Assembly: GCF_000244895.1 (NCBI RefSeq)
Contig: NZ_CM001441.1
Span: forward strand, 2,686,226 to 2,750,225
Direction of reading: 5' to 3'
Source of the DNA: Desulfosporosinus youngiae DSM 17734
Lineage (GTDB): Bacteria; Bacillota; Desulfitobacteriia; Desulfitobacteriales; Desulfitobacteriaceae
Length of the DNA stretch: 64,000 bases
This document shows, one piece after another, positions 20,180 to 53,546 of this stretch (its first letter is position 1; the number at the start of each line of letters is the position of its first letter). A program made the position numbers and the translations under genes. The notes under the pieces were generated by a model. That model was not told where the DNA came from. It searched no databases and saw only the letters and a program-made list of their open reading frames with translations.

Positions 20180-20253
20180 ACAAAAAGTTTGGAGCAGCCA
20201 TTATGCTTGACCAAGTTGTCGTTTTGTGTTAAGTTTAATTCGGTAATTTAATA

Positions 20254-20416
20254 AATGAGCAAGTGATTTTTCTCTAGCGGAGAAAGACAGGGGAAGTTCG
20301 GTGAAAATCCGACGCGGTCCCGCCACTGTAAGGGAGAGTTTCTGCCACATTCACTGAGGGAACTTGGGAAGGAGGCAGTAAATGAAGACCCCGAGCCAGA
20401 AGACCTGATTGCTTAT
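20254..20416 (+). promoter_or_regulatory. Cobalamin riboswitch
   Basis: Contains the B12-box landmarks in order: GGGAAGTTCGGTGAAAATCC, GACGCGGTCCCGCCACTGTA, and GAGCCAGAAGACCTG near the 3' end; ATGAGCAA and TTGCTTAT close the outer stem. Adenosyl- or methylcobalamin binding normally turns off the downstream gene. The core match is near consensus. Confidence 0.95.
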
Positions 20417-20456
20417 GCTTTACTCACGATGGATGGGTGAAGGGATTTGTCAATTC

Positions 20457-38298: not shown

Positions 38299-38457
38299 AT
38301 TCCTTCGAGTTTCTTCATTTAGCTTCGTATTTATATATTATAAGCGGGAGATATGCTTGTCAACCAATACCTTGGGTACTCTTTATCACTCCTCAGTATC
38401 TTTACTCGTCATCATATCAATTAAAATATGAGCTTATCATTAACTGGAGAGAAGATT

Positions 38458-41400
38458 GTGAAGATAAGGATGAAAAAAATCATAAAAAGAAAATCATTTA
38501 GCATAATCACGATGTTCATACTTTTTTTCGTAGGGATTCTTCCTCACGCATCAGCGCAATCTGCTCCTGACTTATACAACAGTGATCCAATTAATAAGGA
38601 ATTGTCAGGGACGGTTGTAAACTGTATTTTTCTGGACAGCAGCGGATTTTTGTGGTTTGGAACCCAAATCGGTCTTTATCAGTATAACGGCTATAGCTTG
38701 AAGCCCCAGAGCTTTAATACTAATCTTTCCAATAGATTTATGTCAAACTTCATAACCAGTCTTTGCGAAGATAAGGACAAGAATATCTGGATAGGTACTT
38801 TTGGCGGCGGCTTAATCAAGTTTAACCCACAAACTGCGGAATACACTAATTTTGATAGCAGTTCAAAGAAACCTAATAACCTTAGTGATAATTTTATCAG
38901 AGCACTGTACAGAGATGATGACGGGAATATTTGGATAGGAACACAGAATAAAGGACTCGATTGCCTTGACCCGGTTTCAGGACTATTTACACATTATGAA
39001 AATAGGACAGATAGTGCAGAAAGTATAAGTTCAAATACAATCACCTCTATTTGCAAAGATAAAGCCGGGGCTTTGTGGATTGGAACGACCGAAGGCTTAA
39101 ACAAATTTGATTCACAGTTAGGTAAGTTCCTTCGCTTCGAAAAGCAGACCGGTGTTTATAGCAGTAGACAGGACAATAATATTTCTAAACTTTATCTGGA
39201 TAAGACAAACGTATTATGGATAATAACAAGTGATGGCAGGCTGAACAAGTTCGATACTGCTTCAGGCGAGTTTATGAATAGCGGTCCTCAGGAATTGGAG
39301 GGCATTAAAGTTACCACTGTTGGCGAGGATAATTTGGGCACTCTCTGGGTTGGTACTTATGGAAAAGGTGTTAGAATGCTGAACAAAGATAATGGGAAAT
39401 TTACGACCTCTGGCTTCGATGCTCCTCAAAACATGTTTTTAGGCAATTACAGGGTGGTATCTCTTCAGGCTGATCACTCGGGTAACTTATGGATTGGAAC
39501 TGAAGGAAATGGTATAGATAGAATCAATACAAACCTGAACTTTATATCAAATAATAACAACCTGAATCCCGATCTGAGTTTTAGTGATGATGTTATTCTA
39601 TCAATTTACAAGGACCATTCCGGAGTCATCTGGCTGGGAACAGCAAGGGGGGGAATTAACCGTTTTGATACCAAAAACAATCGGGTCAGCTATTTTAAAA
39701 ATGACCCGAAGAATAGCGGCAGTATAAGCAGCAACGCGGTAAGCTCTATTTATGAGGACAGCCAGGGAGTCCTATGGTTCGGCACCATCGACGGAACATT
39801 GAACAGGTTTGAACCTGTTTCGGGCAAGTTTGTCCGTTACAAGATAAATAATCTTGAAAACCCGAACATTATGGATAATGGGATTATGAGGATGCAGGAG
39901 AGCAAGGATGGCATGTTATGGGCCTGCGCTGCAAATGGAGGTTTAGTCAGGCTCAACAGAAGTACAGGCCAAGTTACCCAATTCACCAGTAACCCACGAG
40001 ATCCTTACAGTATAAGCAGCAATCATGTGATGTCAATTGCAGAAGATGAATCCGGCCTATTATGGATCGGAACCTTTGGAGGCGGCCTGAACAAGTTGGA
40101 TTCCGCGACGAATCAGTTTAGTCATTATGGCATCAATGAACCCGGTTCATTGACACAAGCTTTTAATTATAACGTTAATGCCATTGTTAACGATCATGAC
40201 ATACTATGGCTGGCTACGGACAGGGGGTTATATAAATTTGATAAAAACAGCGGAACGTCTGTTTTCGTTGCAGATCCTCAGGAAGCTGCCAATACTATTA
40301 TTTTTGGTTTGCTTAAGGATGGGAAGGATAACCTATGGTTAAGCACTGCCAAAGGGTTAATAAGATATAATATTCAAGCGGATAAGTTTAAAAAGTATGA
40401 CTTCAATGGAGGGCTGCAAAGAAATCAATATATCCCTGGAGCATACTATAAAAGCTCTGATGACGAGATGTTTTTTGGAGGAAATAATGGCTTCCTTTCC
40501 TTTTACGCCGATAAAATTATGGATAATAACCATAAACCACCGGTAGTAATAACCGACTTTAAAGTATTTGATAAATCAATCAAGCTAACTGATACAGGCC
40601 AGGTTTCACTAACCTATAAAGATAATTACATTTCCTTTGAGTTTGCTGCCTTAGATTATGCCAACCCTCTTAAAAATCAATATGCCTATAAGCTTGAAGG
40701 CTTTGATACTGATTGGCAATACAGCGGTTCAAGAAATTATGCCAGCTATACAAACTTGAATGGCGGAGACTATGTTCTGAAGATAAAAGCCTCAAACAAT
40801 GATGGCTTATGGAATGAGCAGGGCGCACAAATCAAGCTTTCCATCGCCCCTCCGTTTTGGAAAACAACCTGGTTTAGTATGATGGCCTTTATTTTTATGA
40901 CATCTTCCATCATAGCCCTGATAAAAATCAGGACAAGATCCATAAAACTAAAAAATGTAGCACTTGAATCTATGGTTCTGGAAAGAACAAAGGAGTTAGA
41001 TCGGGCCAATGCTCAACTGCGTCAGGCCGACGAGATGAAAAGCAACTTTATATCGATGGTCTCCCATGAGATTAGAACCCCTTTAGGCGCAATACTAGGT
41101 TTTGCAGAGTTGATAAGCGATAAAATCGAAAGAATTGTTTTACCCAATCTTGATTTAAATGATAAGAAAGTTCAAAAAGCTACGGAAAGGATCGGCCGAA
41201 ATTTAAATATCATCCTTGCTGAAGGAGATCGTCTCTCAGCCCTTGTCGATAATCTGCTGAATATATCAAAAATCGAGTCGGGGAAAATGGACTGGAGAAA
41301 CGAATTACTGGATATTTCCGAACTAATTGAACAAATATTACTGATCACAAAACCAATCGTCACCAAAGCGGGGCTTACAATCCAGGCAGACGTTGAGGCT

Positions 41401-41787
41401 GATTTGCCTAAAGTTACCGGTGACAAGGATATGCTGACCCAGGTATTTGTAAATTTAATTTCTAATGCAGTGAAATTTACAAAAGCCGGCTGGATCAAGA
41501 TATGTGCCAAACGTTCAGGCCATGAAATTCTCGTTTCCATTGAGGATACAGGTGCCGGTATCCCGGAAGCCCACTTGCCAAAGGTTTTTGACAGGTTTTA
41601 TAAGGTAGAACCCTCTCCTGCGGGGAATAAAGGGAATACCGGCATTGGTCTTGGTCTCTATATATGCGCACAGATCATTGAAAAGCATAAGGGCAAAATT
41701 TGGGCAGAAAGTCAAGTAGGCAAAGGAAGCACTTTTTATTTTACCTATCAGATCCCCATGCCGCTGCGCGACACCACTGATGAATGA
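38458..41787 (+). CDS. Two-component regulator propeller histidine kinase
   Basis: A 1109-residue membrane sensor. After a signal peptide (IITMFILFFVGILPHASAQS) come about 14 Reg_prop repeats (LWIGT-type blades, residues about 40-680, two seven-blade propellers), a Y_Y_Y domain (about 695-765), one membrane helix (FSMMAFIFMTSSIIALI), then HisKA with SMVSHEIRTPLGAILGFAEL (His870) and HATPase (DTGAGIPEAHLPKVFDRFY, GIGLGLYI). GTG 38458 follows GGAGAG. In gut Bacteroidetes such sensors see oligosaccharides; the ligand here is unknown. A LytTR regulator follows. Confidence 0.92.
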   Translation: MKIRMKKIIKRKSFSIITMFILFFVGILPHASAQSAPDLYNSDPINKELSGTVVNCIFLDSSGFLWFGTQIGLYQYNGYSLKPQSFNTNLSNRFMSNFITSLCEDKDKNIWIGTFGGGLIKFNPQTAEYTNFDSSSKKPNNLSDNFIRALYRDDDGNIWIGTQNKGLDCLDPVSGLFTHYENRTDSAESISSNTITSICKDKAGALWIGTTEGLNKFDSQLGKFLRFEKQTGVYSSRQDNNISKLYLDKTNVLWIITSDGRLNKFDTASGEFMNSGPQELEGIKVTTVGEDNLGTLWVGTYGKGVRMLNKDNGKFTTSGFDAPQNMFLGNYRVVSLQADHSGNLWIGTEGNGIDRINTNLNFISNNNNLNPDLSFSDDVILSIYKDHSGVIWLGTARGGINRFDTKNNRVSYFKNDPKNSGSISSNAVSSIYEDSQGVLWFGTIDGTLNRFEPVSGKFVRYKINNLENPNIMDNGIMRMQESKDGMLWACAANGGLVRLNRSTGQVTQFTSNPRDPYSISSNHVMSIAEDESGLLWIGTFGGGLNKLDSATNQFSHYGINEPGSLTQAFNYNVNAIVNDHDILWLATDRGLYKFDKNSGTSVFVADPQEAANTIIFGLLKDGKDNLWLSTAKGLIRYNIQADKFKKYDFNGGLQRNQYIPGAYYKSSDDEMFFGGNNGFLSFYADKIMDNNHKPPVVITDFKVFDKSIKLTDTGQVSLTYKDNYISFEFAALDYANPLKNQYAYKLEGFDTDWQYSGSRNYASYTNLNGGDYVLKIKASNNDGLWNEQGAQIKLSIAPPFWKTTWFSMMAFIFMTSSIIALIKIRTRSIKLKNVALESMVLERTKELDRANAQLRQADEMKSNFISMVSHEIRTPLGAILGFAELISDKIERIVLPNLDLNDKKVQKATERIGRNLNIILAEGDRLSALVDNLLNISKIESGKMDWRNELLDISELIEQILLITKPIVTKAGLTIQADVEADLPKVTGDKDMLTQVFVNLISNAVKFTKAGWIKICAKRSGHEILVSIEDTGAGIPEAHLPKVFDRFYKVEPSPAGNKGNTGIGLGLYICAQIIEKHKGKIWAESQVGKGSTFYFTYQIPMPLRDTTDE

Positions 41788-41851
41788 ACTATTCCGGGAT
41801 CATAACTTAATAGAGCAGAGAAGATTACTCGGTTGTTCTGGAGGATGAAAG

Positions 41852-42652
41852 ATGAAGGATAAGCCTAAAAAACAAGTAAAGACTATGGGGGTTCTGAAAG
41901 CGGTCCTGGTGGATGATGAAGAACTAGGTTTGGAGCAGATGCAGTATGTATTTAAGGGGTGTAATGATCTAAAGATTGTCGGCTCTTTTAGTGACTCAGA
42001 AACAGCCTTGGCGGAGATAAAGGTGCTGAAACCGGATGTGTTGTTCTTGGATGTATCCATGCCCGATAAGGATGGTTTCCAGATGGCAAAGGAAATCAGG
42101 GAAACAGGGGATTCAGGATTTTATCCCTATATTGTCTATATTACCGCCCATAACGAATACGCCTGGAAAGCGTTTGAAGTGGAGGCCCTTGATTACATAC
42201 TGAAACCCGTATCCAAGGAAAGAGTTTACACAGTCGTAGAGAGAATAAAGAAGAGAATCGATTTAAGCAAACGAGTGGGAAAGGGTGATTCCACCAGGCT
42301 AAGAGAGGCTTCAACAACTTCTCCTAACTGGGTCGCGGCCGAAGAAAGAGGCTGTATCGTTATCATTCCCATCGCAGAAGTTCACTATTTTTCTGCCCAA
42401 GGTAAAAGCACAATAGTCTATACATCTCGAAAATCACTGCCTACTGATAATACTCTTTCCGCGATTGAAGATAAATTCGGAGCAAGGAATTTTTTCAGGT
42501 GTCATAAAAGTTATATAGTGAATCTGGACTATGTGGACAGGATAATTCCCATGTTTAACCAGAACTATATTATCAAACTGAGAGACAGGAGCGAAGAGAT
42601 ACCTGTAAGCCGTCATTACTCCAAGGAATTGAAAGCTATCTTTGGAATGTAG
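41852..42652 (+). CDS. LytTR-family response regulator
   Basis: A 266-residue regulator: receiver domain (VDDEELGLEQM, phosphoacceptor in VLFLDVSMPDKDG, YILKP) at about 13-135 and a LytTR DNA-binding domain (about 160-266; IPIAEVHYFSAQGKSTIVYTS, FRCHKSYIVNLDYVDRI). LytTR proteins bind paired imperfect direct repeats. GGAGG precedes the ATG. It is 64 bp after the propeller kinase and probably its partner, although LytTR regulators usually pair with LytS-type kinases, one of which is encoded divergently nearby. Confidence 0.93.
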   Translation: MKDKPKKQVKTMGVLKAVLVDDEELGLEQMQYVFKGCNDLKIVGSFSDSETALAEIKVLKPDVLFLDVSMPDKDGFQMAKEIRETGDSGFYPYIVYITAHNEYAWKAFEVEALDYILKPVSKERVYTVVERIKKRIDLSKRVGKGDSTRLREASTTSPNWVAAEERGCIVIIPIAEVHYFSAQGKSTIVYTSRKSLPTDNTLSAIEDKFGARNFFRCHKSYIVNLDYVDRIIPMFNQNYIIKLRDRSEEIPVSRHYSKELKAIFGM

Positions 42653-42660
42653 AGTGATTA

Positions 42661-42690
42661 AAACCCGGTGCAAGCCGGGTTTCTTTTTTT
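42661..42690 (+). terminator. Terminator of the propeller-kinase operon
   Basis: AAACCCGG and CCGGGTTT around a TGCAAG loop, followed by seven T residues. Confidence 0.9.
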
Positions 42691-42955
42691 CATCTACCGG
42701 AAGGGAAGGATATTCCCTGTACTTTATATTGCTGGAGAGCATCTTATATCCTGAAAACAACCACTTATCCCTAAAACAATGATATTTCTACGGGCTGAAA
42801 TAGAATTAAGTTTGAGGTCATAATTCATCTTGCGAACCATTAATCAGAGGGGGGTAGTGCCGAATTCACAGCAGGCTGCGGTATTCCAAATTTTTTTAAA
42901 AAAAGCCTTAAAGTTTTGCAGCAATCTTACGATATTATAGATAGGAGGAACAATC

Positions 42956-43156
42956 GTGCTGGTGTTGGGAAGAAAACCTGGCGAATATGTGATGATTGGT
43001 GAGGACATCATGGTCAAAGTTGTCAGAAGTGACACAGGTGATTTGAGACTCGCAATCGCTGCTCCTAAAAGTACAATAATTACGCGTGGAGAATTATATA
43101 GAGATCAAAATAACTCTTTCGCGGTCAATATGCCCCAAAGCGGGATCAAGGACTAA
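42956..43156 (+). CDS. csrA: CsrA translational regulator (copy 1)
   Basis: A 66-residue CsrA: MLVLGRKPGEYVMIGEDIMVKVV, DLRLAIAAPKSTIITRGELY. It has the conserved N-terminal RNA-binding strand (LxRKxGE) and the C-terminal RGELY region. GTG start after AGGAGG. CsrA dimers bind GGA motifs in hairpin loops; in Bacillus they repress flagellin synthesis and are antagonised by FliW, which is not found here. A structured AGGAC-loop element follows directly. Confidence 0.95.
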   Translation: MLVLGRKPGEYVMIGEDIMVKVVRSDTGDLRLAIAAPKSTIITRGELYRDQNNSFAVNMPQSGIKD

Positions 43157-43220
43157 TAGTGTTTATAGCCTAACTGATTGCCCATATACCATAACTGATT
43201 CCACATTATTTTAAGCCATT

Positions 43221-43294
43221 GCAGGGACGAGCAAATAAGCCAAATTACTCTTACAGGACGTAGGGGAGGATTTGGAATATTTGCTCGTTTTTTT
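43221..43294 (+). ncRNA. CsrA-motif hairpin element E1
   Basis: Outer stem ACGAGCAAATA / TATTTGCTCGT, inner stem CCAAAT / ATTTGG, and an apical UAC-AGGAC-GUA hairpin that puts AGGAC (43255-43259) in the loop. A T tract follows, so it can also terminate. A second GGA motif (GCAGGGACGAG) opens the element. ACAGGACGU is close to the CsrA SELEX consensus. Function is inference. Confidence 0.65.
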
Positions 43295-43306
43295 ATTTAA
43301 GGGATC

Positions 43307-43352
43307 AAGGAGGAGAAATTAAATGAAGTCATGTTATCCCAACGGCACATAA
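43307..43352 (+). other. Nine-codon ORF with strong ribosome binding site
   Basis: AAGGAGGAG (43307-43315) lies 7 nt before ATG at 43323, which encodes MKSCYPNGT and stops at 43352. The preceding sequence (GGGATCAAGGAGGAG) matches that before csrA copy 2 (GGAATCAAGGAGGAG). It looks like the leader of a third, lost csrA unit or a leader peptide. Confidence 0.5.
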
Positions 43353-43388
43353 TATGAAGCAAACTTAAGACAAGGAAAAAGAACAGGT

Positions 43389-43465
43389 ACAGGGACGAGC
43401 AAATAAACCCAACCCCCTTACAGGACGCAGGGGGAGAATTTGGGATAGTTTGCTCGTCTTTTTTT
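43389..43465 (+). ncRNA. CsrA-motif hairpin element E2
   Basis: Outer stem GACGAGCAAA / TTTGCTCGTC (43394-43403, 43449-43458), inner stem CCCCCT / AGGGGG, loop TACAGGACGC. The 5' edge again carries ACAGGGACGAG, and T residues follow. Closely related to E1 in sequence and layout. Located 30 nt upstream of csrA copy 2. Confidence 0.65.
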
Positions 43466-43496
43466 AGTTAATTCAGGAATCAAGGAGGAGTTAATA

Positions 43497-43673
43497 ATGC
43501 TGGTGTTAGGCAGGAAACCTGGGGAATACGTGATGATTGGCAATGACATCATGGTTAAAGTCGTCAAAAGTGACTATGGTGATTTGAGATTGGCCATCGA
43601 TGCCCCTAAAGACACACCTATTATCCGCGGAGAATTATTTGAAGAGCAAAACAAGCCTCCCAAAACCAGTTAG
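43497..43673 (+). CDS. csrA: CsrA translational regulator (copy 2)
   Basis: A 58-residue CsrA paralogue (MLVLGRKPGEYVMIGNDIMV, LRLAIDAPKDTPIIRGELF), highly similar to copy 1 but shorter at the C-terminus (EEQNKPPKTS). ATG 6 nt after AAGGAGGAG. Flanked by elements E2 and E3 and located directly upstream of the giant flagellin gene. Having two adjacent csrA genes suggests dosage or heterodimer effects on flagellin translation. Confidence 0.95.
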   Translation: MLVLGRKPGEYVMIGNDIMVKVVKSDYGDLRLAIDAPKDTPIIRGELFEEQNKPPKTS

Positions 43674-43718
43674 CTGTACGTTCTCAAAGCTTGAAAAGCA
43701 ACCCTTAATTTAATATTT

Positions 43719-43788
43719 CAAGGACGATTACCTTTGCTCATTTCCGGCAGGACGCCGGGATAGATGAAGCCGGGATCGTCCTTTTTTA
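43719..43788 (+). ncRNA. CsrA-motif hairpin element E3
   Basis: Outer stem AAGGACGAT / ATCGTCCTT (43720-43728, 43775-43783), and an apical perfect hairpin CCGGC-AGGAC-GCCGG (43744-43758) with AGGAC as the loop, ending in TTTTTT. Sequence differs from E1 and E2 outside the loop, so the AGGAC loop and the 5' GGACGA are conserved while stems covary. It is also the likely csrA2 terminator. Confidence 0.7.
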
Positions 43789-43850
43789 TAGTTTCCAGAT
43801 ATCAACTATGGTAATAAGCCGAGTGGCCATCAGGCTTGTTATATAAATGT

Positions 43851-43883
43851 GAACACGGAAGTTCATAAAAAAATACACGGAGG
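43851..43883 (+). promoter_or_regulatory. Flagellin mRNA leader with two CsrA-type sites
   Basis: GAAC-ACGGAA-GTTC (43851-43864) is a small hairpin with GGA in the loop, and the Shine-Dalgarno ACACGGAGG (43875-43883) is a second GGA site 24 nt later. This mirrors the BS1/BS2 pair by which CsrA blocks hag translation in Bacillus. Confidence 0.65.
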
Positions 43884-43891
43884 TTTTATTG

Positions 43892-46800
43892 ATGATTATC
43901 AACCATAATATTGCGTCATTGAACATCTACAACAAGTTGGCGACCAATACGGCTAATTCAGCTAAATCCCTGGAAAAGCTGTCTTCCGGTCTGCGCATCA
44001 ACAAAGCCGGCGATGATGCCGCCGGTCTGGCCATCAGTGAAAAAATGCGCGCTCAAATCCGTGGCTTGAACCAAGCTTCAAGAAATGCTCAAGACGGTAT
44101 TTCTCTGATTCAGACCGCTGAGGGTGCCTTGAGTGAAACCCAAAGCATTCTGCAAAGAATGAGGGAACTGGCTACCCAAGCTTCCAACGACACCAATACC
44201 GATTCTGACCGTGGTGAAATCCAGAAGGAAGTCAACCAGTTAACTTCGGAAATTAACCGTATTGGTAACACCAGTGAATTTAATGCCATTAAATTACTGA
44301 AGGGCGATTTAAACGCCACCGCTACCCAAACTGCTAAAGTAACCGGGGCCCAAGTAGTGGGCAATATCGATATTATTGCCGCTTCCACTAATGCCAGTGC
44401 CACTGGAGATGCTTTAACCACGGCAGAAATCAGCGCCATAGGAGGAGCCTCTGCTACCGGAGATGTAGCTTACGATGCTAATCTAGCCAACGGCGGGCCG
44501 AAGGTTGAATTAACCAGCGCCACCGCAACCGGAACAGGTTTAGGGGATGTGGCGATATCCGAACTGAGCGGGATTACGGTGACCGGCACTAAGGATGTAA
44601 GTGGGCCGACAGTAGTAGGGAAGACAGTAGCGGTATTGACAGGAACAGGTGAAGGGGTAACCCTCGACGTCAATCAGCGAAATGATTATACCTTAACAGG
44701 GACGAAAGACATGAAAGCTGCATTAGCCCCAGTATTGACCGGAGTTTCTGCAGGTCCATTAACCAGTGATTTGGATGCCATTGCTACTGATTTAAAACTC
44801 AATGGAGTGGATGTAGCACTAACTAATGTTAAATTACTTGATGGCTCTGGTACTCCAATTGAGATGGACGACTTAGTAGATGGTCTGCAGGCAGATATTG
44901 ACGCAGTATTCGACGGCGCAGATCATAATGGCGTAACATTTACTGTAGGAAATGACAACGGTAAATTAACCATCACATCTTCCGAGCAATATGCGTCAGC
45001 ACAAGTCGCGATTGAAGCCACAGCTGCTTCAGCAACATTAGGATTAACCGTCAATGCTGTAACTGATAGAACAGCAACCGGCGGTATCGAAGTCTCCCGG
45101 ACAGACGCGATAGCCGTAGGCGGCGTAATTCCAGAAAGGTTCGAAATATTTAACACCAACTACAAAGCTGCAACAACAGATCAAGTGTTTGCCGGCGGAT
45201 TAGGCGATGCTGTTGGGAATATATCGGCAGGACTTAATGAAATCAGCATCAGCTTAAACGGTGATCTCGCAAAAACCGTCTCCGTTACTGCAAAAAATTA
45301 TGATGGGGCTGCCGGAAATGAAGTGATTGATTTTCTGGACGACTTAAACGCTTCACTTGATACTGAATTCGGTGCTGGAAAAATTGAAGCAGTACTAAAC
45401 TCAGCGAACAAAATTGAGTTTCGCACAAAGGAAACGAGCATCGAGATTACGGGTGGAGGTTTATTAACCAACCATCTTGGCAATGCTGCAACCTATAGTG
45501 ACATTACAGCCAACAACCAGCTTACAGTGAATGCCAACGGGCTGGAAAAAACTATAACCCTAAATACAGGAGTCTACACTGACGCTGATGTAAACACTGC
45601 TGCTTCGAGAACTTTTACAAATGATGCTGGTACAGATTCACTAGTTATAGCTGCAACTGCTGGTCAAGGAAGAGACGCTAATGCAGTAAGCGTTGAGTTT
45701 ACGGCTGGTGCTGGTGCACTTACAGCAGAGTGGGACGGAACCAGTAATAAGATTACTGTAAGACTATCAACTACTGCAGCTCAGAACACTGCGGCATTGA
45801 TAGAAGATGCAATCCAAGGCTTGGGTACAGCAGGAATAGTGGCGTTAACAGATGGCTCAGAGCTTGATTTATCGGGATGGACTGTGACAGGTACAGGTGC
45901 TTATGTTGCAGGTAATATTACTGACACCGATTTAGATCAAGCCGCACTATCACTTCGCGGTGGTACCACTGCCGCTGCCACAGCCTTTCAATCAGCTTTT
46001 GACAAAGCCTTTGGTGGCGATGTGGCAGTAACTTGGAATGCTGCAACAGACAAAATCTCAATTGAAGATCAATATGGCTCGGTACGCAGCACCCTTGAGA
46101 TCGTTGGCGGATCAGCTGTCGATACACTGGGGCTCGGTGCTGGAGACGTAGATATCACCCAGGGAACAGGCAATGAACTAACCCTAACCATTGGGACGAA
46201 GACAGAAACTGTCTATCTGACAGAGACAAATCACGCTAGTGCTGAAGCATTTGCCGCAGATCTCCAAACCAAAATCCAAGCAAAAGGCGGAGATTTTGGG
46301 AATGTCACTGTATCTGTTGAAGACAACAAACTTGTCTTTTCCACAGGCGATAGCGCTAAGGAACTTGAAATTTCAGGAGCGTCAACGAGTGCTGTGAAGC
46401 ATATGTTAAGTGATCCTTCTGACCCTGATACGTTTGCGGATGCTACGTATACGGCGAAGGCAAATACGATTAATCTAACGATCAACGGAACTACCAGAAA
46501 TGTAACCATCAGCGAGGGCACCAGCGAAGCAGCAGCATTAACAGGGGCGAACAATGCTACATTAAATGAAGATCTTAGTTCTCTTGCTGTTGACTTAACG
46601 CTTAATGGTCAGGCAGTTGCGCTTAATGAAGTTAAAAAACTTGATGGAAGTGGAACTCCGATTGATATTGGACAACTTACTCAACGGCTGCAGGCTGATA
46701 TTGATGCTGTATTTGATGGTACAGCCCATGACGGAGTCCAATTCACTGTCGGTAATAATGGAAATAAATTAACTATCACATCGATACAAAAAGGCACGGA

Positions 46801-49789
46801 GGCAGAAGTAGCGATTACCGCAAATGCTGCATCAGCAAAACTGGGATTAACCGCAGACGCTCTTACGGATAACTCAGCAGCGGGAAGCGGTTTAAATGGT
46901 GCTAACGGCGCCTATGATTTAAGCGTTGCTGCAGACCAAGCCGCTTTCTTAACAGTACTCCAGGCCGAACTAAATGCGAAATTCGGGGAAAACACGACTA
47001 TTGCTTCATTTGATGGGGATGACCAGCTGGTGCTCACCAATAATGATGAGTCGAGAGGCACAGGCAGCACGATTGTTGTTAACAATGGTACTGTAGCAAC
47101 TGCGCTGGGAGCTGCCGGCCTATCAGCCCAAGGCGGGGAAAACACCGATCTTACAGTAACCTTTAATGGGAATACTATAAACATTATGCTTGACGAAGGG
47201 AATTACACTGCGACAGAATTAGCTGCGGAATTACAGACTAAGATCAATAATCCAGCTATCACTGTAGTAATAGAGAATGACAAAGTAGCTTTTAAAACTA
47301 ACGGAGTAGGTGACACCCTAACCATCCAAAGCGGTGGAGCTCTTGCACACCTGGTCAACACTGCTGCGGAGCCCGATTTCGTCACCACGCAGATTGGTAC
47401 CGGCAACAATGAGTTGGAGCTTAAAGTAGGAACGACTACTGGGACCATCAGTCTGTCAAATGAAACGTATGACTTGACCCGTTCTGCTGGTAAGGACGCC
47501 TTCCTTACCGACATTAATACTCAACTTGACGAGGTATTTGGTGCGAACAACGTTGTTGCCTCTTTCGGCGGAGAAGCTGCAGGCGCCGTAAATCCAGTTG
47601 AAGTGATTACACAGAGCGTACGTGAAGAACGGGGTATATATACCTTAAACATCGCCGAGGCTTTCACAACGAATAATACCCAAATCAATATCGGTGGTGT
47701 ATTGGACGGAGTCGGCGTCGTTCAAGGTGGAGTAGACATAGCAATTGGCAGCGGAGTAATAGGAGGTATTGACACTGATACCGCTATCACCACCCAACAA
47801 CAGGCACAGGCGATTGAAGCGGCCTTATTGTTGGATAGTGATTTTACCGACAGATTCGAAGTAGCTCGCACAGGCAGTACACTTACCTTTACCGAAAAAG
47901 AAGCCCAAGCAACAGGAGTGAATTTGCAAGTAAAATTAGACACTACTATTAATACAGTTGGTGGTGCTTATGACTTAGATGTAGTGAACAATAGTGCGGT
48001 AGAGGTAAGAGGTGAATATAATCTCACATTAACCAAACAGTTTGCAGCTGGTGATCAACTGACAATCAACGGTACCACTTACCATGCTGTGGCAAATGAC
48101 GCTATATTAGGTGATAATGAATTTAAGGTAGGCACTACGTTAGAGAACCAGAGAGATAATCTGATAACTGCAATCAATCTTGCAAATCCTGACCCGGATG
48201 ATCAGTTAGATGCTTCACCTCGTTTAGGTTTACAACACACCATCGTGCTTAAAGAAAAGTCAGGTCAGGCAACGGGTGTAAAACTCGAAAATGCAGTCAC
48301 TGCTGGCAACAGCCTAGTATTGACTAATAGCCTGGAAGGCAAAGACAGCACGATAGAGGTCGTCGGCGGCAGCGCAGAATCATTCCTTAACCTTGCTGAT
48401 ACCGTACATGTGCAGGGCACGGAAAACAACGAACTCACCCTGACTCTTAACGGCGATACCCAAACGATTGCTTTGGATATAGCAGATTACAGTACTGGCG
48501 GGAAAACAGCCCAAGACTTCCTTAATAACATTAATACCAAACTGGAGGATGCCTTTGGTGCCGGTAAAATTTCAGCATCATTTAATGGCCAAAACCAAAT
48601 TACGTTTACAACTACCAATGTAGGGGATAGCTTATCCGTGGACGGCGGTGGAGCGGTAAGTCATCTCGTAGCCAGTAACGACGCGAGCGACTTTACAATT
48701 GCAGTCGATGGCTCGGACAATAATAAGCTTAATATTACAGCTGGTGGCTTGACGAAAGAGATTACCTTGGCAAATGGGAATTATGACTTTTCAGTATCTG
48801 CTGACCGTGAAACATTCCTAGCGGATATGAACACCAAATTAAGCGCAGCCTTTGGTGACGGCAACATTGAAGCAGCCTTTGATGGGGATAACAAGCTGGT
48901 ACTCACAAATAGCCTTACTGGTTCCATAAGTACCTTGACTGCTGTAACCGGTACCGCTCAGGCAGCGTTGGGTCTACAAACTGCAGCTTATGTCCAGGGC
49001 AGAAATGCCAATAACACTTCCACTCTGGAGATTGACGGCATCCAGGCTGACATTACCTTAAATGCAGGCACTTATACAGTGGGAGGTATGGCCTCAGATC
49101 TTCAGAATCAGATCCGTGCGGTTGCTGGCTTGGAAAATGCCACAGTTAATTACACAGACGGTTCATTTGTTATTACCTCAGGCCAGGATGGATCAGCTGG
49201 ATCAGTCAAAGTAACGGCAGATGAAATGGCTAAGACACTTGGTCTAGACAGGGCAACAACAACTGCCGGAGCAGACTCTGTGGGGCAGGGTATAAGACTT
49301 CAGGTGGGAGCCAACTATAACCAGAGCATGACGGTGGATATCTCTGATATGCGTAGTGTGGCATTGAAAGTCAGTGGAGGCGCTGCCCAAGCTGGGGCAG
49401 AAGTAGAAGCCAGTGATGGTGCTAAAGCAAAGTATGTTGCCATTACCAACGTAACCGACGGTACCGACAATACAAACATAGAATTTGCTTTAGATGTTTC
49501 CTCTTTTGAAAGTGCAACAGCAGCCATCAGTGTACTCAATGATGCAATTGCTGCAGTATCGAGTGAAAGGTCTAAACTGGGTGCTTTTCAGAACCGTTTG
49601 GAGCACACCATTGCCAACCTCTCAACTACCTCCGAAAACATGACCGGTGCTGAATCCCGTATCCGCGATGTAGATATGGCTAAAGAGATGATGGAGTTCC
49701 AAAAGAACAACATTCTCGCTCAAGCCGCTACTGCGATGCTGGCTCAAGCCAACCAACAACCCCAGGGCGTATTGCAGCTTTTGCGTTAA
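43892..49789 (+). CDS. Giant flagellin (1965 residues)
   Basis: Flagellar filament protein. Residues 1 to about 145 are a standard flagellin D0/D1 N-terminus ([52 protein letters not shown]) and the last 90 residues the matching C-terminus ([53 protein letters not shown]). Between them lie about 1730 residues of Thr/Ala/Gly/Asn-rich beta-type repeats, many resembling Flagellin_IN modules ([29 protein letters not shown]). No Cys seen. Typical flagellins are 250-550 residues. ATG 43892 lies 8 nt after GGAGG. Two csrA genes precede it. Confidence 0.95.
44757..45062 (+). repeat. About 100-residue flagellin repeat, copy A
   Basis: Encodes a module (residues about 289-390) with [20 protein letters not shown] and [17 protein letters not shown] that recurs with clear similarity at 46559-46870. 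Confidence 0.8.
46559..46870 (+). repeat. About 100-residue flagellin repeat, copy B
   Basis: Encodes the second copy (residues about 890-993): [20 protein letters not shown] and [17 protein letters not shown], followed by a KLTITS and AASAKLGLT segment as in copy A. Evidence of internal duplication. Confidence 0.8.
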
Positions 49790-50268: not shown

Positions 50269-50565
50269 ATGGATAATGAAAAGTTTCAAGAGTTAGTCTT
50301 AAAACATTTAGAGGACAACGCTAAACGTTTAGGTGAAATTAGTGAAAAGCTCGCCGAGCATGATAGGCGTTTTGATAGCTATGATAAGCGCTTCGACGGC
50401 TATGATAAGCGCTTTGATGGCTATGATAGACGCTTTGATAGCCTTGAAGCTTTAGGCAAGCAGCATCACGAAGAACTCGAAAAGATCGCTTCTCAAGTGG
50501 AAAAATTAATTCAAAATGAAGACGAAATAACGGATTTCTTGCTTAAAAGACGTAGAAGGATGTAG
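50269..50565 (+). CDS. Small coiled-coil protein with heptad repeats
   Basis: A 98-residue, highly charged, helical protein. Four consecutive seven-residue units of the type RFDxYDK (residues about 34-61) lie between flanking helices (LVLKHLEDNAKRLGEISEKLAEHD and EELEKIASQVEKLIQNEDEIT). The tail is RRRRM. The heptads predict a parallel coiled coil. Similar small proteins occur in Firmicutes without known function. GTGGGGCGAGC precedes the ATG. Confidence 0.8.
   Translation: MDNEKFQELVLKHLEDNAKRLGEISEKLAEHDRRFDSYDKRFDGYDKRFDGYDRRFDSLEALGKQHHEELEKIASQVEKLIQNEDEITDFLLKRRRRM
50368..50450 (+). repeat. 21-bp tandem repeat encoding the heptads
   Basis: Four units with period 21 bp: starts at 50368, 50389, 50410 and 50431, consensus CGCTTTGATGGCTATGATAAG with few changes. 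The repeat keeps frame and adds one heptad per unit. Confidence 0.9.
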
Positions 50566-53399: not shown

Positions 53400-53546
53400 T
53401 TGAAGAATGACCTCCGAGCCAGAATGACCTAAAGAGCAATTCCAAGGTCACTGGACAGGATCGCAGATCCTCAGGGTATTCCGGGAAACTGGTATGCCTT
53501 CACAGTTTGAAGAGGAGTAGTTCGGGTTAGACTGGGATACCAGTTT
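53400..53546 (+). promoter_or_regulatory. Moco (molybdenum/tungsten cofactor) riboswitch
   Basis: Contains the segments I recognise from the Moco RNA motif: ATGACCTCCGAGCCAG, AAGGTCACTGGACAGG, a GGATC-GCA-GATCC hairpin, CAGGGTATTCCGGGAAACTGG and TATGCCTTC. AAACTGGTAT (53486-53495) and ATACCAGTTT (53537-53546) can pair over 10 bp. Location before a molybdate/tungstate transporter and a terminator hairpin right after support it. Covariance search not run. Confidence 0.8.

Follow-up and report, generated by a model that had tools for sequence, protein, structure and literature searches.

The locus described here lies in a 64,000-nucleotide stretch of the genome of Desulfosporosinus youngiae DSM 17734 (contig NZ_CM001441.1, positions 2,686,226 to 2,750,225 of the forward strand), which we call the window, and is built around a flagellin gene encoding 1965 amino acids (aa). 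Two short csrA genes, the scar of a third and three copies of a hairpin-forming RNA element with GGA in its loop precede this gene on the same strand (Table 1). The giant gene encodes the structural protein of a second flagellin locus, far from the main flagellar locus in this genome, and the csrA genes in front of it form, judged by their residues, a paralogue class without a FliW site. On balance, this second flagellin is probably under a FliW-blind CsrA circuit and controlled apart from the main flagellin. Giant flagellins as such have already been published (PMC6248924); the less expected part of the locus is the upstream csrA array with its hairpins, rather than the size of the flagellin.

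Table 1. Features of the csrA-flagellin locus; positions are those of the window.
Feature	Position	Strand	Evidence
Sigma-D/sigma-28-type promoter-like site, TAAAG-N16-CGATAT, 5' of first csrA	42909..42935	+	Pattern search; putative function
csrA-array gene 1, 66 aa, without FliW-binding N55 helix	42956..43156	+	CsrA family match, residue check
GGA-hairpin element 1, then T-run	43223..43293	+	Model match; fold z-score -9.9; covariation
Scar of lost middle csrA: ribosome-binding site and 3' flank left, coding part gone	43294..43390	+	Aligns to both flanks of second csrA in genome G029
GGA-hairpin element 2	43391..43462	+	Model match; fold z-score -5.8
csrA-array gene 2, 58 aa, without FliW-binding N55 helix	43497..43673	+	CsrA family match, residue check
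GGA-hairpin element 3	43720..43787	+	Model match; fold z-score -4.4
Flagellin mRNA leader: conserved hairpin TAATAAGCC..GGCTTGTTA, then ACGGAA-loop hairpin (43848-43867)	43808..43891	+	Six-species alignment
Giant flagellin, 1965 aa	43892..49789	+	Intact open reading frame; Flagellin_N and Flagellin_C matches
D0/D1 N-terminal region, residues 3-138	43898..44305	+	Pfam Flagellin_N PF00669, E 4e-46
Module block 1: nine diverged modules of about 95 aa, residues 296-1247	44777..47632	+	Self-trained profile and second profile
Different module, residues 1371-1462, kin to part of the 843-aa main flagellin	48002..48277	+	phmmer, tblastn
Module block 2: three modules, residues 1512-1798	48425..49285	+	Profiles, predicted fold
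D0/D1 C-terminal region, residues 1880-1964	49529..49783	+	Pfam Flagellin_C PF00700, E 3.4e-29

The open reading frame (ORF) of the giant flagellin starts with ATG at 43892, with GGAGG 8 nucleotides upstream, ends with a stop at 49789 and encodes an acidic product of 201 kDa (isoelectric point 4.2). An earlier reading of the DNA from its sequence alone (the sequence-only reading) had proposed a giant flagellin with normal ends, and both end-domain matches, PF00669 and PF00700, indeed exceed the Pfam cut-offs. It is very improbable that the gene is an assembly artefact or silent: it is a single intact frame of 1965 codons, long flagellins are present in three sibling species too, and repeat-driven misassembly is unlikely since Tandem Repeats Finder (TRF) detects no DNA tandem repeats in the gene and the genome forms one contig of 5,660,978 bases. 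The window has a G+C content of 0.436, and the codon use of the giant gene correlates nearly equally with that of the main flagellin (0.85) and of six other window genes (0.83), so that codon use does not discriminate. On its 3' side lies a 98-aa ORF (50269-50565) with repeated YDKRFDG-like heptads, for which no family scored above the cut-off.

The insert between the ends had been called repeat-rich, and at the protein level it is: its strongest internal self-comparison pairs reach 133, 97, 82 and 78 bits. Composition-matched shuffles of the insert also yield weak pairs owing to composition (48 weak matches at E<=1e-3 in a total of 20 shuffles), and weight is therefore given to the strong pairs alone. 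Two profiles, both trained on the giant flagellin itself and the first grown from three clear copies, detect 13 stretches in the insert (one of them weak and partial) and, for the second profile at E<=1e-5, 11 stretches. By these profiles the insert is made up of 11-13 diverged copies of a module of about 95 residues, arranged in two blocks with a different module between them. In other flagellins, taken from loci fetched by similarity to the giant gene, the first profile matches 8 of 86 ORFs: three Paenibacillus flagellins of about 906 aa with five modules each, two flagellins of 656-668 aa with three each, and three further ones with 4, 2 and 1 mostly weaker matches. Modules occur three to five times in some flagellins of Paenibacillus and Bacillus, and the block 2 stretch shares 52-54% identity with the last part of the module region in the Paenibacillus proteins. 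Among 45 genomes of the family, the insert finds a match at E<=1e-10 in its own genome only (1/45), and the module profile finds none in 14 other flagellins of the genus that were tested. Short and weaker similarities to the insert do occur in the family, mostly to residues 1239-1465, the region of the second module type, and two family genomes, G028 and G030, share about 63 module residues at 44-45% identity (E 1e-7 to 1e-8). It may be that the insert passed from one lineage to another and was multiplied afterwards. Module counts of 3, 5 and 11-13 form a natural size series for relating filament thickness to subunit size.

The insert had also been taken for purely beta-type sequence, which did not hold, the modules predicted by AlphaFold2 being alpha/beta. 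A single module is modelled as beta-beta-alpha-beta-beta-beta (mean predicted local distance difference test, pLDDT, 73.8; predicted template modelling score 0.70), and a three-module piece repeats a similar strand-helix order thrice (pLDDT 66.7). Foldseek returned no match at E<=0.001 with either model; a second structural aligner placed FliD and flagellin chains or outer domains at Z 4-6 among its top rows, intermixed with phage tail sheath proteins (top Z 6.6). The module profile matches 38 of 398 genomes of the phylum at E<=1e-5, the own genome included. When nine regions were fetched from the best matches, the module profile (A5) fell between FliD_N and FliD_C in eight of them (best E 4e-17), the ninth being a 1042-aa flagellin. 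By profile, the modules are therefore related to the middle, D2-type outer domain of the filament cap protein FliD. The label Flagellin_IN-like given to them earlier needs to be divided: the giant protein has no match to the Pfam model Flagellin_IN (PF07196) even at E<=10, which rules that family out as the module name, and the kinship to FliD together with the fold type supports the label in a looser sense. Compared with the FliD D2 domain and Flagellin_IN, the likeness consists in the profile matches between FliD_N and FliD_C and the similar strand-helix order; the differences are that PF07196 is unmatched and that the module is strung 11-13 times in one flagellin. Searched by sequence against solved structures, the insert had no match at E<=1, and the module profile gave only weak matches to unrelated proteins, the best being Nucleoprotein TPR (E 0.004), which were discarded.

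Sizes were surveyed in the 45 family genomes, 37 of which have a Flagellin_N match, the survey not extending to bacteria as a whole. The longest open frames measure 1978 (own), 1692, 1460, 1203, 992 and 988, the longest flagellin proteins 1965 (own), 1652, 1438, 1190, 983 and 979 aa; the next-largest flagellins in the genus are those of 1652, 1438 and 1190 aa, and 4 of the 45 genomes encode a flagellin above 1000 aa. The 1965-aa protein is the largest flagellin measured in this survey, roughly fourfold the size of a usual one. Among 114 ORFs with both flagellin ends (from 121 loci, several sibling loci being incomplete) the next largest has 1137 aa. A search of the 398 genomes of the phylum (322 with a match) gives no size ranking, because the giant itself is absent from the matches listed, the largest frame among these being 1447. 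In 2017, UniProt held 92 sequences with PF00669 above 1000 aa (PMC6248924), and the rarity and near-upper size proposed from the sequence are supported within the survey. The protein also exceeds the 1000 residues by which giant flagellins are delimited in PMC6248924. A thick or decorated filament and a high synthesis cost are plausible by analogy, as flagellins of 1020 and 1190 aa in two species formed filaments at least 30 nm thick according to the part of PMC6248924 cited here.

The suggested search for a second, ordinary flagellin was successful. The genome contains three Flagellin_N matches, namely the giant, an 843-aa flagellin elsewhere in the genome and an FlgL-like gene; the 843-aa flagellin sits in the main flagellar cluster with csrA and fliS, where further genes were read from their translations as fliW, flgL, flgK and fliD. 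The giant and the 843-aa flagellin are 77.5% identical at the N end and 84.4% at the C end, so that the two could co-polymerise, and only one FliS match was found in the genome. These observations, as well as the relation of the modules to the outer domain of FliD, speak for a product that decorates the 843-aa flagellin filaments as a surface structure or adhesin, mixed into or capping them, instead of building a filament of its own. We regard this as doubtful but worth some weight, the filament of Bermanella being built from its giant flagellin (PMC6248924, in the portion considered).

CsrA-type control upstream had been proposed as well, and the sequence supports it in a more specific form. 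One, two or three extra csrA genes stand just 5' of a flagellin in 9 of the 45 family genomes; the flagellins behind these nine arrays have 1965, 1438, 1190, 983, 979, 684, 423, 417 and 415 aa. The middle csrA missing from the array of D. youngiae is intact in G029, where it is the second csrA. The array CsrAs are 54-66 aa long, and asparagine 55 or the following helix is found in 0 of 16. Main CsrAs, sampled from 30 loci plus G020 (CsrA being present in 35 of the 45 family genomes), have 75-84 aa and carry the asparagine 55 helix in 31 of 31 examined; the main CsrA of the own genome has the C-terminal extension and asparagine 55. Both are reported to be required for FliW binding in Campylobacter and Bacillus, while CsrAs controlled by small RNAs are described as having no such extension (PMC7829508, PMC13407953, as far as the cited parts go). 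It is quite unlikely that the usual FliW-CsrA-flagellin partner switch governs the giant as one more flagellin of the ordinary kind and that the extra csrA genes are redundant duplicates, since the FliW-binding asparagine and extension are absent from all 16 array CsrAs, no fliW-like match was found within the 64-kb window at E<=1e-4, and the giant leader is unlike the main-flagellin leaders with which it was compared. The arrangement that would suit such a switch, csrA beside fliW and a flagellin, is that of the own main locus, the array in G020 directly follows fliW and the main csrA, and the C-terminal end of the giant is 84% identical to that of the main flagellin.

Several observations accompany the arrays. 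A second fliS lies between the array csrA and the flagellin in G010, G011 and G018. Three sibling loci (L183, L184 and L185) have copies of the RNA element on either side of a group made up of array csrA, second fliS and a small flagellin of the MRV/MRI type. A CsrA-like match was noted in G017 at C2:119030. Directly 5' of the csrA array in the window (38428-42652), a large sensor kinase with two-component regulator propeller repeats is followed by a LytTR response regulator; this pair is a possible input to the csrA-flagellin locus.

The promoter-like site in front of the first csrA follows what we take to be the sigma-D/sigma-28 consensus; the pattern has 1 match in the window against 0.13 expected, and one or more matches also arise in 12 of 100 shuffles. 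In the flagellin leader, ACACGGAGG spans the ribosome-binding site (43875-43883), and the leader contains candidate CsrA sites, GGA motifs being known to mark such sites (PMC4894983, in the part cited). An alignment of six species shows CACGGA twice in 6 of 6 leaders of the MII-type flagellin, the second copy over the ribosome-binding site, and a nearly invariant TAATAAGCCGAGTGGCCAT segment common to all six. In 6 of 7 other leaders, from five main flagellins and G023, a different pattern with GGGCAAGGA(T/C)GCC is found. The 1652-aa flagellin of G023 (L122) has this main-type leader and would represent a separate route to a giant flagellin.

In the RNA element, a 5' GGA(C/T)GA is combined with a long and imperfect stem that bears C-AGGA(C/T)-G as its apical loop, and a T-run follows; the element stands 5' of both the second csrA and the giant flagellin. 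A model trained on ten copies from five genomes (R1) found further copies beside array csrA genes in G020, G010 and G011 when run on the 45 genomes, and scanning of the G018 locus added copies there. The AGGA(C/T) loop is present in 18 of 20 candidates from the nine loci and in 18 of 18 that match the model; GGA in the loop of a conserved, covarying hairpin, the mark of decoy-type RNAs, is hence found in all 18. Across these elements, 94.0% of the cells are paired, compared with 78.0% in shuffled alignments (0/500) and 41-52% in slid versions, over which the structure is favoured by having been derived from the same alignment. Both sides changed in 11 of 20 pairs (shuffled mean 8.4, reached in 6/500), and a separate count of the apical stem gave 69 of 75 cells paired as against 57.3 when shuffled (0/2000). 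In 82 genomes of the class, a model trained on these 18 copies gave 18 matches at E<=1.4e-8, all in the nine loci, and no other match below E 1e-4, three weaker ones lying in G026, G007 and G093. Rfam does not match the three own elements, and its two sub-threshold matches in 42640-43900 (E 0.014 and 2.1) lie outside them and were taken as chance. Over the window it recognises only two riboswitches, both far from the locus, a cobalamin riboswitch at 20248-20426 and a molybdenum/tungsten-cofactor riboswitch at 53400-53533, the latter just after a solute-binding/permease/ATPase transporter gene set. Among the matches listed by a literature search that mostly leaves subscription journals outside its coverage, neither this element nor flagellin-linked csrA arrays appeared.

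Being a long hairpin with a T-run behind it, each element might be a plain intrinsic terminator or processing site that insulates genes, its loop GGA not being bound by CsrA. This is unlikely, because all 18 model-matched elements preserve the C-AGGA(C/T)-G loop and the 5' GGA(C/T)GA while their stems vary through compensating pairs, and because nothing further matches below E 1e-4 in the 82 genomes; moreover, a full terminator inside the transcript would presumably block the flagellin unless another promoter follows.

The FliW-blind CsrA circuit that we favour would operate as follows. Sigma-D would start the csrA-flagellin transcript, and the array CsrAs would repress the giant flagellin via the two CACGGA sites of its leader, one of which overlies the ribosome-binding site. 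Since FliW is not expected to be bound by the array CsrAs in the manner known, these would be relieved or balanced by the GGA-hairpin RNAs, acting as CsrA-switched attenuators or as short decoy RNAs. The giant subunit would rely on the shared export apparatus and the one FliS of the cell and assemble into a filament with its modules outward. In its general form, the idea is that a second flagellin, in many cases enlarged, has a private circuit acting after transcription and composed of a new family of structured RNAs and a CsrA subfamily blind to FliW; it is put forward tentatively, as one that could well prove wrong.

A number of findings weigh against this circuit. CsrA binding to the leader and the elements is suggested by GGA motifs alone. 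The own leader folds only moderately better than shuffled sequences (z-score -2.0, 5/200 as good), and the G017 leader has no stem around the upstream CACGGA. Two of the RNA candidates, found in G028 and G030, have no AGGA(C/T) loop, and neither genome has an element directly 5' of the flagellin; R1 also gives weak matches in G008, G022 and G031 (E 0.016-0.097), and 5 of its 23 matches in the scanned loci are antisense readings of the palindromic hairpin. A simple terminator scan did not flag the three own elements, so attenuation would depend on the long imperfect hairpin and T-run. The array csrA genes of G020 come immediately after fliW and the main csrA, and those of G029 are some 7 kb away from these two genes; the locus is thus not separate everywhere, only some of the nine being remote. 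Finally, the sequence-only reading had seen strict CsrA-type control as fitting the cost of so large a protein. Size and CsrA control are separable: the csrA loci of G010, G011 and G018 carry small flagellins (415-423 aa), and in G023 no csrA match occurs within 2.5 kb upstream of the 1652-aa flagellin, where the contig ends.

Among known systems, the giant flagellins of Bermanella marisrubri and Oleibacter marinus share with the present one the normal D0/D1 ends, an insert enlarged by domain duplication and a length above 1000 aa. They have 1020 and 1190 aa and two DE regions, compared with 1965 aa and 11-13 modules here, and the second flagellin gene and linked csrA genes set D. youngiae apart from them, as far as the cited part of PMC6248924 describes these species. 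Giant flagellins being known already, what is added here is that the largest of the survey comes with its own candidate regulators.

Decoy RNAs of the CsrB/RsmZ type in gamma-proteobacteria carry repeated hairpins with GGA in the loop, and the CsrAs there have no C-terminal extension. Both features have their likeness in the repeated loop-GGA hairpins and short array CsrAs; unlike CsrB/RsmZ, the hairpins stand singly between the genes of a flagellin locus, the genome also has FliW, and sequestration is only a candidate mode of action. A partner switch made up of FliW, CsrA and the flagellin present in the cytoplasm operates in Bacillus subtilis (PMC6529632). The FliW-CsrA-Hag switch shares with the D. 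youngiae locus a csrA beside the flagellin and a candidate CsrA site over the ribosome-binding site; in contrast to what the cited part of PMC6529632 describes, the array CsrAs have no FliW-binding helix and come in 1-3 copies, GGA hairpins recur, and no fliW stands beside the array csrA in the own locus. In a published survey, FliW and BarA-UvrY, which makes CsrA-decoy RNAs, were almost mutually exclusive (340/346 genomes), and three Desulfosporosinus species were among the six possible exceptions, the BarA part alone seeming to be there in these three; that source leaves open whether species with FliW also use inhibitory RNAs (PMC4682653, in the sections cited). The present locus is a concrete candidate for control of CsrA by FliW and by RNA in one cell, with defined RNA and protein parts; if the reading is right, one Firmicute genome runs FliW for its main flagellin and an RNA, attenuator or decoy, for its second.

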